51,828 nt of DNA from Candidatus Rokuibacteriota bacterium (GTDB lineage: Bacteria > Methylomirabilota > Methylomirabilia > Rokubacteriales > CSP1-6). Each line of letters opens with the position of its first letter. Position 1 is the first letter of the stretch. Location: assembly GCA_003220435.1 (NCBI GenBank), contig QHSL01000087.1, positions 1 through 51,828 on the forward strand, in the 5' to 3' direction. Under the pieces are notes generated by a model. That model was not told where the DNA came from. It did no database searches and saw only the letters and a program-made list of their open reading frames with translations. The translations under genes and the position numbers were made by a program. Below, piece by piece: positions 34,016 through 38,612 of this stretch.

Positions 34016-34049
34016 GCGCCCGAGCCTATCAAACCGCCGGAGAAATTGG

Positions 34050-34063
34050 TATGATCGCGCTGC
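34050..34063 (+). promoter_or_regulatory. -10 box close to the start codon of the precursor-like gene
   Basis: TATGAT (34050-34055) lies 8 nt before the ATG at 34064, in a rare AT-rich patch between divergent genes. A transcript from this box would have an extremely short or no leader. No clear -35 is seen. Confidence 0.5.
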
Positions 34064-34282
34064 ATGGCTCAGGGACTTCGCGAGCTCGTGGGGCGCGTGA
34101 TGATCGATCCGGAATTTCTCGCCGAGCTCCAGCGCGCGCCCGAGTCGCTCCTCGCCCAGTACGAGCTGACGGACGCCGAGCGCACGACCGTTCGGCAGGC
34201 GCTCGTGCGGTTGGCCGCGACGCCCCCGAGCGAGCGTCGACACGAACTCCGCAATATCCTGATCCGCCGCGTGGCCACCTGA
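34064..34282 (+). CDS. Os1348/NHLP-like small protein, candidate RiPP precursor
   Basis: This is a 72-residue protein. The first 45 residues (ELVGRVMIDPEFLAELQRAP, ESLLAQYELTDAERTTVRQA) resemble the leader of NHLP-clan/Os1348-type peptides, which are related to nitrile hydratase alpha-subunit leaders: 'V-x-G-R-x-x-x-D-x-E-F-x-x-x-L-x-x-x-P-x-x-x-L-x-x-Y-x-L-T-x-x-E'. The rest (LAATPPSERRHELRNILIRR plus VAT) would be the core. It has no Cys, but has Thr, Ser and several Arg. The next two genes, a cyclic-nucleotide-binding protein and a PqqD-like/M50 protease-like protein, fit a peptide-modification or export unit. Alternatively it is a non-precursor member of the family with an unknown function. 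Confidence 0.65.
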   Translation: MAQGLRELVGRVMIDPEFLAELQRAPESLLAQYELTDAERTTVRQALVRLAATPPSERRHELRNILIRRVAT

Positions 34283-34298
34283 GCTCGGGCCCGCGCGC

Positions 34299-34799
34299 GT
34301 GCTGACGTCCGCCGCCACCCTCGCGTTCCTGCGCGACGTTCGCCTGTTCGAGACGTTCGACGAGCTGGACCTGGCCGCCCTCGCCGTGCACCTGCGCGAG
34401 TGTCCGCTGCGCCGGAACCAGATCCTCTTCCGGGAAGGCGACCCGGGCGACGAGATATTCATCGTCCGGCGCGGGACGATACTGATCTCCAAGGCGGTCA
34501 CCGGCAAGGTCGAGCAGGTTCTGGTCCGGGTCGATCCCGGCGACTTCTTCGGTGAGATGAGCCTGCTCGACGGCTCGCCGCGCTCGGCGACGGCGCAGGC
34601 GGAAACCGAGGCGGAGCTGCTCGTTCTCGGGCGCGACGGCCTCCAGGCGCTGACCGAGACCAACCCGCGCGGCGCCGCCGCGTTCTTCCACGCGATGGTG
34701 CAGGTCTTCATCGAGCGGTTGCGCCGCTCGACGCTGCAGGTCGCCGAGGCGACCCGCTGGGGCCTCGAGGCCACCGGCCTCGACGTCGAAGCGCGGTGA
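34299..34799 (+). CDS. Cyclic-nucleotide-binding domain protein
   Basis: This is a 166-residue protein made of one cNMP-binding (CAP-type) domain with an alpha-helical C-terminus and no DNA-binding helix-turn-helix. The phosphate-binding cassette FFGEMSLLDGSPRSATAQA (84-100) keeps the Glu (E86) and Arg (R95) needed to bind cAMP or cGMP. The hydrophobic LFREGDPGDEIFIVRRGTI precedes it. It may work as a ligand-sensing subunit of the peptide system. The GTG start follows the precursor-like gene by 16 nt, and its stop overlaps the next start (GTGA), so the three genes form one operon. Confidence 0.9.
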   Translation: MLTSAATLAFLRDVRLFETFDELDLAALAVHLRECPLRRNQILFREGDPGDEIFIVRRGTILISKAVTGKVEQVLVRVDPGDFFGEMSLLDGSPRSATAQAETEAELLVLGRDGLQALTETNPRGAAAFFHAMVQVFIERLRRSTLQVAEATRWGLEATGLDVEAR

Positions 34800-36022
34800 C
34801 CGACCGCCCGGCCCCGGCGAAGCTCGAGCTGCTCGTTCGCCGCGACGGCGAGGAAGACTTCGAGCTTCGCCAGGTCGCGAGCCTGGTCGGCTACATCAAC
34901 TCGCGCCCGCGCCGCGTCGACGTCGGCTCCTTCGAGATCTCCGAGGTCCACTCCCGCGTCGTGGCCGCCCGGCCGCACTTCATCCTGAAGAACACGACAA
35001 CGGACCGCTACCTGCTGCTCTCCGCGCCGGAGCGGTTCCTGTGGGAGCAGATGGACGGCTCCACGTCGCTGCAGGAGATGGCGACCGCCTACGTGCTGGA
35101 GTACGGCGAGTTCGACTTCGACATCATCCCGAACCTCATCCACAAGCTCCAGCGCGCGCAGCTCCTGACGCTGGAGCCGCGGTCCCGCCTGCGGCAAGCG
35201 CTGGCGCGCCACCGCCGGCGGCGCGTGGCGCGGGCGCTCGAGCTGGCGCTGACGAGCCTCGAGCGCATCCGGATCGCGAGCCTCGACGTGCACGCCTTCT
35301 TCCAGCGCCTGTACCGCTGGGGCGGTTTCCTCCTGTTCACGCGTGTCGCGATCGTCGCCTGCATCGGGCTCGCGCTCCTGGGCGTCGGCGCCGCCGTCCA
35401 GATCTCGCGCGAGATGCACGACGTGCTCGACGGCTTCGGCAGCCGCCCGCTCCTCGGCATCCTGACCGTGAAGCTCCTGTTCTTCGGCAGCGTCGCGCTC
35501 CACCAGATCGTCCACGGCCTCGCGTGCGTTCACTATCGGCGGCGCGTGCGGGAGTTCGGGTTCACCTTCCTGCACGGCTTCGTGCCGACCTTCTATGTAG
35601 ACGTGACGGACATCTTCATGGCGAGCCGGCGCGCGCGGGTCGTCACCGCGGTCTCCGGCGCGCTCGTCCATCTGGTGCTGGGCGCCGCCTGGTTCATCGT
35701 CGCCGCCCGCGTCCCGCCGGGCGGCTTCACCCAGGCGTTCGCCGCGGCGTCGGGGATCATCCAGTGGCAAGCGCTGGTGCTGTCGCTGTACCCGTTCTGC
35801 TTCATCGAGATGGACGGCTACCACGTGCTGGTCGACGTGCTCGGTGTCCCGACGCTGAAGCACGACGCGCTCGCGTACGTGAAGGGGCTGCTCACCGGCG
35901 CCCGCCGGATCCGGCGCGGGCGCGAGGAGGGGCTCTGGCTCGGCTATGTGGCGCTCTCGACCCTCTCGGTGGCCGCGTTCATCGCGTTCAACGTCTGGAT
36001 CATCCTCAGCGCGACGACCTAG
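34796..36022 (+). CDS. PqqD-like domain fused to M50-type membrane protease homologue, HExxH changed to HQIVH
   Basis: This is a 408-residue polytopic protein. Residues about 58-125 look like a PqqD-type RiPP recognition element (HFILKNTTTDRYLLLSAPER, FLWEQMDGSTSLQEMATAY). The rest resembles the COG1994-type site-2 protease family: membrane helices from about 178, HQIVHG (236-241) in the position of the zinc motif, and YRRRVREFGFTFLHGFVPTF plus YVDVTDIFM, a family hallmark. Its second metal-ligand block FIEMDGYHVLVDVL (D340) is intact. The catalytic Glu is replaced by Gln (codon CAG), so it may be inactive as a protease and serve as a peptide binder or transporter subunit. It is coupled to the cNMP gene. 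Confidence 0.82.
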   Translation: MTDRPAPAKLELLVRRDGEEDFELRQVASLVGYINSRPRRVDVGSFEISEVHSRVVAARPHFILKNTTTDRYLLLSAPERFLWEQMDGSTSLQEMATAYVLEYGEFDFDIIPNLIHKLQRAQLLTLEPRSRLRQALARHRRRRVARALELALTSLERIRIASLDVHAFFQRLYRWGGFLLFTRVAIVACIGLALLGVGAAVQISREMHDVLDGFGSRPLLGILTVKLLFFGSVALHQIVHGLACVHYRRRVREFGFTFLHGFVPTFYVDVTDIFMASRRARVVTAVSGALVHLVLGAAWFIVAARVPPGGFTQAFAAASGIIQWQALVLSLYPFCFIEMDGYHVLVDVLGVPTLKHDALAYVKGLLTGARRIRRGREEGLWLGYVALSTLSVAAFIAFNVWIILSATT

Positions 36023-37185
36023 TCGGTCGCGTCCGCGAGCAGGGCCGCCACCGCGGCGGTGATCTCCCGAGCGCGTTCGACCCCACCGCGCGCGCGCGCC
36101 TCCCCGGCGTCGGGCAGCTCGTCGGGATCGCGACGGAGGAGCTCGGCCTGCGCGCGGCCGCGCAGCTCGTCCCCGACCAGCGACGCGATCTCCACGAGCA
36201 CCGCCAGGCCGAGCGCGACGCGGTCGGCTCGCGCCGGCGCCGCCGCCAGTCGCCGGACGAACGCTTCACGGACCCGCTCGGAGACTCGCACCCGATCCCG
36301 CCCGATGTGGATCAGGTCCCGCGTGACCGGTCCCCACTCGAGCGAGCACGCGCCCGCGACAGATTCGACGAACGGCGCCAGCGGCGCCGCGGCTCGCGCA
36401 GCCACCGTCGCAACGACTCCCGGCCAGACGCCGGGCGGCAGCGGCCGGCTCGGCCCGGACGCGGACTCGGGGGCGACGATCGCGGCAAGGTCGCCGTTCG
36501 CACCGAGCCGCAGGTGCTCCTCGAGCGGCTGCTCGAGCGCCCAGAGTCCGCAGCTGACGCCGCCCGGCGCCTCGGCGATCCGCCGCGGGGCGTGGCGGAC
36601 CACGCGTTGCCAGTCGGGCCGATAGTAGGTGATGGAGCGCCAGACGACCTTCTCGATCCGCTCGCGCAGCTGCACGTAGAGATCGTCCCCGACGAAGAGC
36701 CGCTCGGCGGGGGCGGGGCGCCACGCCAGATCCCCCCGAATGAAGGTCGCCAGCGCATCGTCCACCGCCGGCTCGTAGTGGAACGACTCGAGCAGCGCCA
36801 GGAAGAGCTGCTCGGTCGGGTAGGGACCACGATAGGCGAGCGGGCCCGTGCTCTGAGCGAGCGCGAGCGCGGCGATGAGGTTCAGCACGGCCGTCCCGCC
36901 GCCCGGCGGAAGCCGCGCGGGCTCGGCGAGCGCGGGAATCCGGTCGATTCGGCCCCAGTCGAGGGCCTCGAACAGTGTCAGCGGAGTCCCGTGCCAACCT
37001 TCGCCCGCGGGCTCGGCCGCGTGCCACAGGCGATCGGACCAGCCCCACGGCGCGTCCGCCGTCGCCCGGGGCTCGATCCCGAGCCACGAGCCGTCGGGAA
37101 TCCGCACCCACGCGCCCTCGAGGCGGCCGGCGTCGGCCCAGCGCATCACTGCAAGCCGGGTTCCCCGGCGGTCGACCACCTGCAC
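36019..37185 (-). CDS. Unknown protein, convergent with the PqqD/M50 gene
   Basis: This protein of about 388 residues (from GTG at 37185; a TTG at 37215 would give 398) is one I do not recognise. It is largely soluble. Notable stretches are ALDWGRIDRIPALAEPARLP, GPYPTEQLFLALLESFHYEP, RPAPAERLFVGDDLYVQLRE, RIEKVVWRSITYYRPDWQRV and CSLEWGPVTRDLIHIGRDRV, with an Ala/Arg-rich helical C-terminus. No catalytic motif is evident. Its 3' end overlaps the M50-like gene by 4 nt. Its promoter is in the short divergent gap with the amidase. The tight convergent arrangement suggests either functional linkage or antisense interference. Confidence 0.72.
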   Translation of the reverse strand: MQVVDRRGTRLAVMRWADAGRLEGAWVRIPDGSWLGIEPRATADAPWGWSDRLWHAAEPAGEGWHGTPLTLFEALDWGRIDRIPALAEPARLPPGGGTAVLNLIAALALAQSTGPLAYRGPYPTEQLFLALLESFHYEPAVDDALATFIRGDLAWRPAPAERLFVGDDLYVQLRERIEKVVWRSITYYRPDWQRVVRHAPRRIAEAPGGVSCGLWALEQPLEEHLRLGANGDLAAIVAPESASGPSRPLPPGVWPGVVATVAARAAAPLAPFVESVAGACSLEWGPVTRDLIHIGRDRVRVSERVREAFVRRLAAAPARADRVALGLAVLVEIASLVGDELRGRAQAELLRRDPDELPDAGEARARGGVERAREITAAVAALLADATD

Positions 37186-37214
37186 GATGCGGAATGATAC
37201 AATGCGAGCCGTCA
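37186..37214. promoter_or_regulatory. Divergent promoter region (amidase / unknown gene)
   Basis: An AT-rich patch GGAATGATACAATG (37191-37204) holds TACAAT on the plus strand, about 11 nt before the amidase ATG at 37215, and on the minus strand TATCAT, 8-9 nt before the GTG at 37185. Both -10 candidates would give very short leaders. Confidence 0.45.
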
Positions 37215-38612
37215 ATGCTGACCTGGCGCTCCTCTCTCGAGCTCGCTGATCTCGTGCGGCAGCGACAGGTAAAGCCGCTCGAGATCCTCGACGCCGTCCT
37301 GACGCGCCTCGAAGCGGTCAACCCGACTCTCAACGCGTTCTGCCTCGTCGCCGTCGACTCCGCGCGGGTGGCGGCGCGCGAGGCGGAGATCGCCGTGATG
37401 AAGGGTGAGCCGCTCGGACTTCTCCACGGCGTGCCGCTCTCCGTGAAGGACGTCCTGCTGACACGCGGGCTCACGACGACCGGGGGCTCCCGACTGTTCG
37501 AGGACTTCGTGCCGGACGAGGACGCGCTCGCCGTCGGCCGGTTGAAGGCGGCCGGCGCGGTGCTGTTCGGCAAGACCAACACCTCGGAGTTCGGCCACAA
37601 GGCCGTGACCGAGAGCCCGCTGTTCGGCGTGACGCGCAATCCCTGGGACCCGACCCTGACGCCCGGCGGCTCGAGCGGCGGCGCTGCCGCGGCGGTGGCG
37701 AGCGGCGTGGGCCCTATGGCGCTGGGCACCGACGCCGGAGGCTCGGTTCGGATCCCGGCCGCGTTCTGCGGCGTCTTCGGTTTCAAGCCTTCGTTCGGCC
37801 GCGTGCCGGACCGCGCGCCGTTCGGCGGCTTCGAGCGCGTCGGTCACGTGGGGCCGATCACTCGCACCGTGCGCGACGCCGCCGCGGTGCTCGACGTGGT
37901 GGCCGGTGGCGACGATCGGGACCGGGGCTCGCTGCCGCGCGAGGCCGCCTCGTACCTCGAGGCGTGCGACGCCGACGTGAAGGGGCTCCACGTCGCGTGG
38001 GCGCCCGACCTCGGCTCCGCGGTGGTGGACCCGCGCGTGCTGGCGGCATGCGAGAACGCGGCCGGCGTGTTCGAGTCGCTCGGCTGCCACGTCGAGGTCG
38101 TCAATCCGGGCTGGGAGAGCGCCGAGGAGATGTTCACCACGATCGTCGCCGCGCAGTTCTATGCGGCGTGGTCCGATCGGCTGCCCGAGGACGAGCCGCA
38201 GATGGACCCGACGCTCGTGCGGTTCATCCGACGCGGTGGCGCGGTGACCACGCGTGACTACGTGCGCGCCGTGGCGCGCATCGAGGAGTACTGGCGCGAG
38301 GTCCAGATGTTCCTCGAGCGCTTCGACATATTGCTGATGCCGACGGTGGCGGTGCCACCCTTCGCGGCCGGCGCGCCGCCGCCGCGGGAGATCGCGGGGC
38401 AGGAGGTCTCGGTGCTCGGCTGGATGCCGTTCACGTACCCGTTCAACATGACCGGGCAGCCCGCGGCCAGCGTGCCCGCCGGCTGGACCGACGAGGGATT
38501 GCCGGTCGGGCTGCAGATCGTCGGCCGCCGTCACGCCGACGGCGCGGTGCTGGCGGCGTCCGCCGCGTTCGAGGGCGCTTCGCCCTGGAGAGATCGCCGT
38601 CCGGCGCTCTGA
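37215..38612 (+). CDS. Amidase signature-family protein (GatA/AmiE-like)
   Basis: This is a 465-residue amidase-signature enzyme. The catalytic Lys is K78 in VKDVLLT, GGSSGGAAAAVASG (151-164) holds the cis-Ser, and GTDAGGSVRIPAAFCG (171-186) the nucleophile S177. These match the Ser-Ser-Lys triad. The family includes GatA and many nitrile/amide-degrading amidases. The absence of gatB or gatC nearby and the catabolic surroundings favour a stand-alone amidase. ATG at 37215; the -10 candidate TACAAT is close upstream. Confidence 0.9.
   Translation: MLTWRSSLELADLVRQRQVKPLEILDAVLTRLEAVNPTLNAFCLVAVDSARVAAREAEIAVMKGEPLGLLHGVPLSVKDVLLTRGLTTTGGSRLFEDFVPDEDALAVGRLKAAGAVLFGKTNTSEFGHKAVTESPLFGVTRNPWDPTLTPGGSSGGAAAAVASGVGPMALGTDAGGSVRIPAAFCGVFGFKPSFGRVPDRAPFGGFERVGHVGPITRTVRDAAAVLDVVAGGDDRDRGSLPREAASYLEACDADVKGLHVAWAPDLGSAVVDPRVLAACENAAGVFESLGCHVEVVNPGWESAEEMFTTIVAAQFYAAWSDRLPEDEPQMDPTLVRFIRRGGAVTTRDYVRAVARIEEYWREVQMFLERFDILLMPTVAVPPFAAGAPPPREIAGQEVSVLGWMPFTYPFNMTGQPAASVPAGWTDEGLPVGLQIVGRRHADGAVLAASAAFEGASPWRDRRPAL

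Follow-up and report, generated by a model that had tools for sequence, protein, structure and literature searches.

A conserved three-gene operon of Rokubacteria joins an NHLP-clan small protein, a cyclic-nucleotide-binding protein and a putative RRE-fused site-2 pseudoprotease

Three adjacent genes in the genome of a Candidatus Rokuibacteriota bacterium encode a small helical protein of the Os1348/NHLP clan, a stand-alone cyclic-nucleotide-binding (CNB) protein, and a membrane protein in which an RRE domain is fused to a site-2 protease (S2P) domain that appears to have lost its catalytic residue. We favor, with a probability of roughly 45%, the interpretation that this trio is a core, vertically inherited signaling operon, whose products would form a pseudoprotease complex gated by cyclic nucleotides, with the small protein docked via the RRE. 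The parts are known and the combination is new, with an MpaP-like protein that is seemingly catalytically inactivated at its center. Literature searches pairing RRE with CNB or S2P, NHLP with CNB, and Rokubacteria with RiPPs found no description of the trio, in agreement with the original prediction, in which no characterized system with just these three parts was known.

Architecture of the operon

The genes are arranged head to tail on the + strand between positions 34064 and 36022 of the window, by which we mean the entire 51,828-nucleotide stretch of DNA that was analyzed. The features discussed below are as follows.

34047..34055, + strand: extended -10 promoter element TGGTATGAT, ending 8 bp 5′ of the small-gene ATG; the mRNA is predicted to be leaderless
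34064..34282, + strand: small gene, encoding a 72-amino-acid helical small protein of the Os1348/NHLP clan
34299..34799, + strand: CNB gene, encoding a 166-amino-acid stand-alone cyclic-nucleotide-binding protein (PF00027)
34548..34595, + strand: phosphate-binding cassette FGEMSLLDGSPRSATA, canonical, with the cNMP-contacting residues E86 and R95, both invariant
34755..34784, + strand: RWGLEATGLD, the C-terminal tail of the CNB protein; conserved in two phyla and a candidate docking peptide
34796..36022, + strand: RRE-S2P gene, encoding a 408-amino-acid RRE-S2P fusion, a putative pseudoprotease (NF041824; AF2 model with Foldseek)
34976..35173, + strand: RRE/PqqD-like winged-helix domain, residues ~61-126 (AF2 secondary structure and matches to lasso RREs)
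35291..36016, + strand: S2P/M50-like membrane domain, residues ~166-407 (AF2/Foldseek; weak DUF3267 and Peptidase_M50 matches)
35501..35515, + strand: HQIVH at the HExxH position; the catalytic Glu is replaced by Gln (Val in deltaproteobacterial kin) and both His residues are kept
35813..35824, + strand: DGYH, in which D340 corresponds to the third metal ligand of S2P enzymes; E338 lies two residues earlier

The close packing of these reading frames, with a 16-bp gap after the small gene and a 4-bp overlap between the CNB and RRE-S2P genes, bears out the three-gene operon that had been proposed. A short-leader promoter had been proposed as well; the element TGGTATGAT is indeed present, and in 21 of 39 orthologous loci sequence comparison finds a -10-like hexamer between -12 and -16, but the predicted leader length is zero. 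This promoter context is near-identical among loci within the genus of the window, and in some other genera the -10 element lies farther from the small gene and is accompanied by a purine-rich ribosome site. The small gene, which is first in the Rokubacteria operon, most likely shares a transcript with the two genes that follow.

In divergent genera, a tRNA-Glu gene ends ~20-25 bp 5′ of the small gene (L071:7566-7644, L072:8729-8807, L086:8961-9039 and L105:3914-3992), and fragments resembling tRNA 3′ ends lie upstream of it at four other loci (L073, L074, L085 and L087). These genes and fragments possibly mark an ancient tRNA-Glu integration site.

Distribution and conservation

The small gene and the RRE-S2P (M50) gene each occur in 55 of the 57 genomes examined from one Rokubacteria family (24 genera), always on the same contig and adjacent in 55 of 55, and each of the 40 loci read in detail has the CNB gene in the middle. 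The trio is therefore a conserved unit, as the original prediction supposed, and in this family the small gene never occurs apart from its partners. The two genomes without the operon are one of 1.7 Mb (G027) and one that is 82% complete (G030), and a profile of the small gene has no match in 38 other genomes of the phylum. At one of the 40 loci (L095), the only one with a broken small gene, the sequence has a run of N.

All three genes are under purifying selection (dN/dS of 0.10-0.42 for close pairs), and pairwise divergence in any one of the three proteins correlates with that in the others (r of 0.66-0.85). Chance or a mis-called reading frame is ruled out by these dN/dS values and by conservation in 55 of 57 genomes. 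A mobile or defense element was likewise rejected, given the vertical distribution, PADLOC matches that are confined to the CNB domain, and the lack of a plasmid homologue.

The genes upstream of the operon vary between loci, and on its 3′ side a convergent gene for a 398-amino-acid protein and an amidase gene are common to most loci, though not all. The convergent 398-amino-acid protein (window positions 36022-37215, - strand), which adjoins the operon in 34 of 40 loci, matches nothing in Pfam, NCBIfam, PADLOC or the PDB. Annotated neighbors include an amidase, a VTT protein, a DAHP synthase and an ABC substrate-binding protein; none is a peptide-modifying enzyme, and the earlier statement that no RiPP enzyme lies nearby is thus upheld. 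In one genus, a gene convergent to the operon (L104:366-2393, + strand) encodes a 675-amino-acid protein in which we recognize by eye a trypsin-like protease, a membrane segment, a rhodanese and a CNB domain, which would make it a second membrane protein with a link to cNMP.

The small protein and the peptide natural-product interpretation

The clan assignment of the small protein rests on two profile comparisons. The NCBIfam model NF038399 (‘Os1348 family NHLP clan’) matches all 39 orthologues at E ≤ 0.01, although the copy in the window scores 33 bits, under the curated cut-off of 40, and only a few orthologues reach 40-41 bits. A profile of the small-protein family matches the Os1348 crystal structure (PDB 6lk7) over positions 3-45 with an E-value of 4.6e-5, and the next matches are DesB and nitrile hydratase alpha chains. 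Neither of the two observations named beforehand as refuting the original prediction, a small gene mostly without its partners or a fold unrelated to the NHLP leader, was thus made. An AF2 model (pLDDT 78) is all-helical, and a Foldseek search with it is uninformative, returning DesB helices only, at E > 1, and not 6lk7. There is no transmembrane segment.

The closest named relative, Os1348 of Pseudomonas sp. Os17 (PDB 6lk7, PMC7726476; NF038399), belongs to the same sequence family, is likewise small and helical, and is also encoded by the first gene of an operon. However, Os1348 has 85 amino acids and its gene adjoins genes for an acetyltransferase, an HEXXH protein and a SagB-type dehydrogenase, whereas the protein in the window has 72 amino acids, CNB and RRE-pseudo-S2P partners, and a score under the family cut-off. 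Other Os1348-family genes in Rokubacteria score higher and stand alone, some of them adjoining RND efflux genes (L196:5672-5917 and L202:4731-4964); the Os1348 gene of strain Os17 likewise has efflux neighbors, being located beside EmhABC (PMC7726476).

The small protein had been said to have the leader pattern of nitrile-hydratase-related RiPP precursors; the clan part of that description stands while the precursor part is not supported. The Os1348-type domain is also a LigA-type helical module, which occurs in non-precursor subunits of the LigA/DesB kind as well, and therefore clan membership alone does not make the small protein a precursor. Moreover, the orthologues have a fixed length of 72-73 amino acids, no variable core, and neither a GG site nor another leader cleavage site. 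Invariant residues extend along the chain (L8, G10, D15, F18, P26, L30, L35, E39, A46 and R69), and most members end in a conserved [RK]R[VWL][AS][TM]. Judged from these sequences, the small protein, of fixed length, lacking GG and conserved at its C-terminus (R69 being invariant), is the opposite of a RiPP core.

One could still envisage a RiPP made by unlinked enzymes, in which the small protein would be a precursor whose NHLP leader is recognized by the RRE, and which is exported or matured by proteins encoded elsewhere. The clan assignment is compatible with this arrangement, and RRE-S2P fusions do occur in daptide clusters (PMC10036551). We nevertheless consider it quite improbable, given the features of the small protein listed above and its sharing of a domain with non-precursor subunits, its near-universal vertical inheritance, an S2P site without Glu, the lack of modifying enzymes nearby, and the near absence of LanB/PEARL and of an NHLM exporter from the family genomes. 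LanB/PEARL domains (PF04738) are absent from 55 of the 57 family genomes, including that of the window, with matches in two, one of them above cut-off; a pearlin was rejected on this account, there being no PEARL/LanB-type ligase. The search of the family genomes for an NHLM exporter gave none above cut-off, which led us to reject NHLM peptide export, and its many sub-threshold matches are probably ordinary ABC transporters because the same search also gives matches in 13 of 14 control genomes. The one strong LanB-type match of the family (G030:C2:12176-14173; L203) is located in one of the two genomes that do not carry the operon.

On present evidence, the operon is not a peptide natural-product system. 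The possible new peptide system of the original prediction finds no support, in view of the conserved C-terminus, the lack of a cleavage site or variable core, inheritance as a vertical core gene, and a ‘protease’ that has no catalytic Glu.

The cyclic-nucleotide-binding protein

The second protein matches PF00027 with an E-value of 1.3e-23 (83 bits against a cut-off of 27.5), and among solved structures in the PDB the closest are cyclic-nucleotide-binding proteins, PKA regulatory subunits being an example. CNB cassettes may be conserved in proteins that do not bind cNMP. Nevertheless, the phosphate-binding cassette is intact and class III cyclase domains are encoded by all 57 family genomes (21 in the genome of the window), which makes the cNMP binding originally claimed for this protein credible. 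Its best NCBIfam match is TIGR03896 (cyc_nuc_ocin, bacteriocin-type transport-associated), likewise a CNB protein, of peptide-transport contexts; however, the score is 48 bits against a cut-off of 161, and no NHLM exporter above cut-off is present here.

A protein of this type also brings to mind Pycsar, the cyclic-nucleotide anti-phage systems, and the CNB protein does match PycC and PycTIR of PADLOC weakly. Such a function seems highly improbable to us. These matches cover the CNB domain only, the other two proteins have no PADLOC match, neither a cyclase nor a toxic effector is found among the neighbors, and a gene set conserved vertically in 55 of 57 genomes does not resemble a defense system.

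A putative pseudoprotease fused to an RRE domain

Standard domain models capture the third protein poorly, as evident by an E-value of only 0.18 against Pfam PqqD and weak matches to DUF3267 and Peptidase_M50. Its best NCBIfam match is NF041824 (daptide_HExxH) at 1.3e-28, and this model also matches all 44 members of the family, which comprise 40 Rokubacteria proteins and four deltaproteobacterial relatives. In the AF2 model (pLDDT 79), the secondary structure of the N-terminal domain follows the order E61-66, E71-75, H77-85, H92-103 and H110-120. Foldseek places the leader-bound lasso RRE of TbiB1 (probability 1.00), mjS2P (3b4r; 0.97) and SpoIVFB (0.69) among its matches, with E-values for the RRE and S2P domains that are weak (0.02-0.14) although the probabilities are high. 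The PqqD-like/M50 membrane protein of the original prediction is therefore substantiated in both its domains, but it had been overlooked that the protease motif is HQIVH rather than HExxH.

This substitution is not peculiar to the window. The motif reads HQxxH in 40 of 40 Rokubacteria orthologues and HVxxH in all four deltaproteobacterial kin, and H236, H240, D340 and E338 are invariant in all 44 proteins. S2P paralogues in genomes of the same family retain HEFAH or HEVAH together with NPLxKLDGYY, and have K or E at the residue two positions before the Asp. In zincins, loss of the catalytic Glu is known to abolish peptide hydrolysis. The best reading of the sequences is that the RRE-S2P protein is a pseudoprotease that has lost its general base and kept its metal ligands. 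With this motif, the site presumably cannot hydrolyze peptides in the usual way, which points to a role as receptor or escort.

The same invariant residues can be turned against the signaling model, since the metal ligands could reflect some other retained catalysis and E338 might act as a substitute base. The protein would then be a metalloenzyme that holds Zn or Fe on H236, H240 and D340, employs the Gln or E338 as base, and modifies or trims the C-terminus of the small protein (-RVAT or -KRWAT) under cNMP control. Retention of all four residues in every member is consistent with this proposal, as is conservation of the final residues of the small protein, and there are known M50 proteins that trim conserved scaffold peptides at the C-terminus (TglG and TmoG; PMC10885120). 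However, one lineage has Gln where the Glu should be and the other has Val, so that no conserved catalytic residue occupies this position, E338 is not clearly special given that HExxH paralogues carry K or E there, and the deltaproteobacterial pair exists without a small gene. We judge the metalloenzyme unlikely.

The favored pseudoprotease differs from each of the known systems that it resembles. MpaP, the RRE-fused intramembrane site-2 protease of daptide systems (NF041824, PMC10036551), likewise has an N-terminal RRE followed by an S2P membrane domain, but the window protein scores 100 bits against the cut-off of 300 and has HQxxH or HVxxH in place of HExxH. A daptide system was rejected despite the shared fusion, in that HExxH is absent, no daptide enzymes are encoded nearby, and the partner protein has no invariant C-terminal Thr (34 end in T, 5 in M). 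TmcP, a DUF3267 S2P that acts with the escort TmcE in TMcin biosynthesis (PMC13252029), is also a membrane protein of the S2P clan that handles a small protein encoded alongside it, and offers a precedent for an escort. TmcP has an active HExxH site and a transmembrane precursor, whereas the small protein of the window lacks a transmembrane segment, its S2P partner has an apparently inactive site, and a CNB protein is present. The chloroplast S2P pseudoprotease EGY3 is an S2P homologue without the catalytic motif that is kept for a non-proteolytic function, a precedent for stabilizing other proteins (PMC10978774), although it is a plant protein without HExxH for which no RRE or CNB partner has been described.

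Relatives in deltaproteobacteria

A scan of 84,980 species genomes recovered 46 loci of the Rokubacteria type and four deltaproteobacterial loci at 37-39% identity. One of the 46 (L117) is on a contig deposited as Actinobacteria MAG AC_69, where the Rokubacteria M50 gene is present at 78% identity; this is probably a mis-binned contig. At the four deltaproteobacterial loci, the CNB gene lies directly 5′ of the pseudoprotease gene, and the CNB protein ends in the same tail (RWGLEATG, or RWALEATG in one). A recognizable small gene is found neither beside this pair nor elsewhere in these relatives. Candidate homologues in two of the genomes (L163 and L164, both read) proved to be LigA-like subunits beside genes for LigB-type dioxygenases. 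No additional RRE-pseudo-S2P orthologue turned up in two draws of 247 genomes from the phyla of L157 and L159, which yielded only two distant matches. In two of the four loci, a gene resembling fatty acid desaturases lies directly 5′ of the pair (the L156:1257-2192 region and L159:4293-5264).

Retention of the pair without the small gene implies that the CNB-pseudoprotease pair predates the trio or is more mobile than it, the small gene having been either added in Rokubacteria or lost in deltaproteobacteria. It also invites the idea that the pair is the functional machine, for example one that regulates another membrane protease or transporter, and that the small protein is a separate, lineage-specific regulator that merely shares the operon. 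The solitary Os1348-family genes elsewhere in these genomes, some beside RND efflux genes, fit this idea. Its weakness lies in the Rokubacteria loci, where the small gene leads the operon, is most likely cotranscribed with the pair and is never parted from it, and we therefore regard the idea as rather unlikely.

Discussion

In the signaling model that we favor, the cytosolic RRE of the membrane pseudoprotease would dock the Os1348-like small protein, and the CNB protein would bind cAMP or cGMP while attached to the membrane protein through its invariant RWGLEATGLD tail. Cyclic-nucleotide binding would then decide whether the small protein stays at the membrane or is let go to reach a target. 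Like inactive S2P and rhomboid homologues, the S2P domain would serve as a receptor or escort rather than as a processing enzyme, and in deltaproteobacteria the CNB-pseudoprotease pair would work without the small protein. The loss of proteolysis assumed here is read from the primary structure of the RRE-S2P protein.

A bolder version, which we put forward as doubtful, is that the operon constitutes a new second-messenger system. In this case, a cyclic-nucleotide-gated intramembrane pseudoprotease would use an RRE taken over from peptide biosynthesis to bind an NHLP-like signal carrier and set it free again, and would be a core function of a whole uncultured family.

RRE domains and NHLP-type proteins serve as markers of peptide natural products. 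The occurrence of both as core genes, alongside a seemingly dead S2P and a cNMP sensor, suggests that RiPP parts have been recruited for signaling, and also that rules for genome mining that rely on RREs can be misleading. The operon thereby offers a concrete test case for the role of intramembrane pseudoproteases in bacteria.
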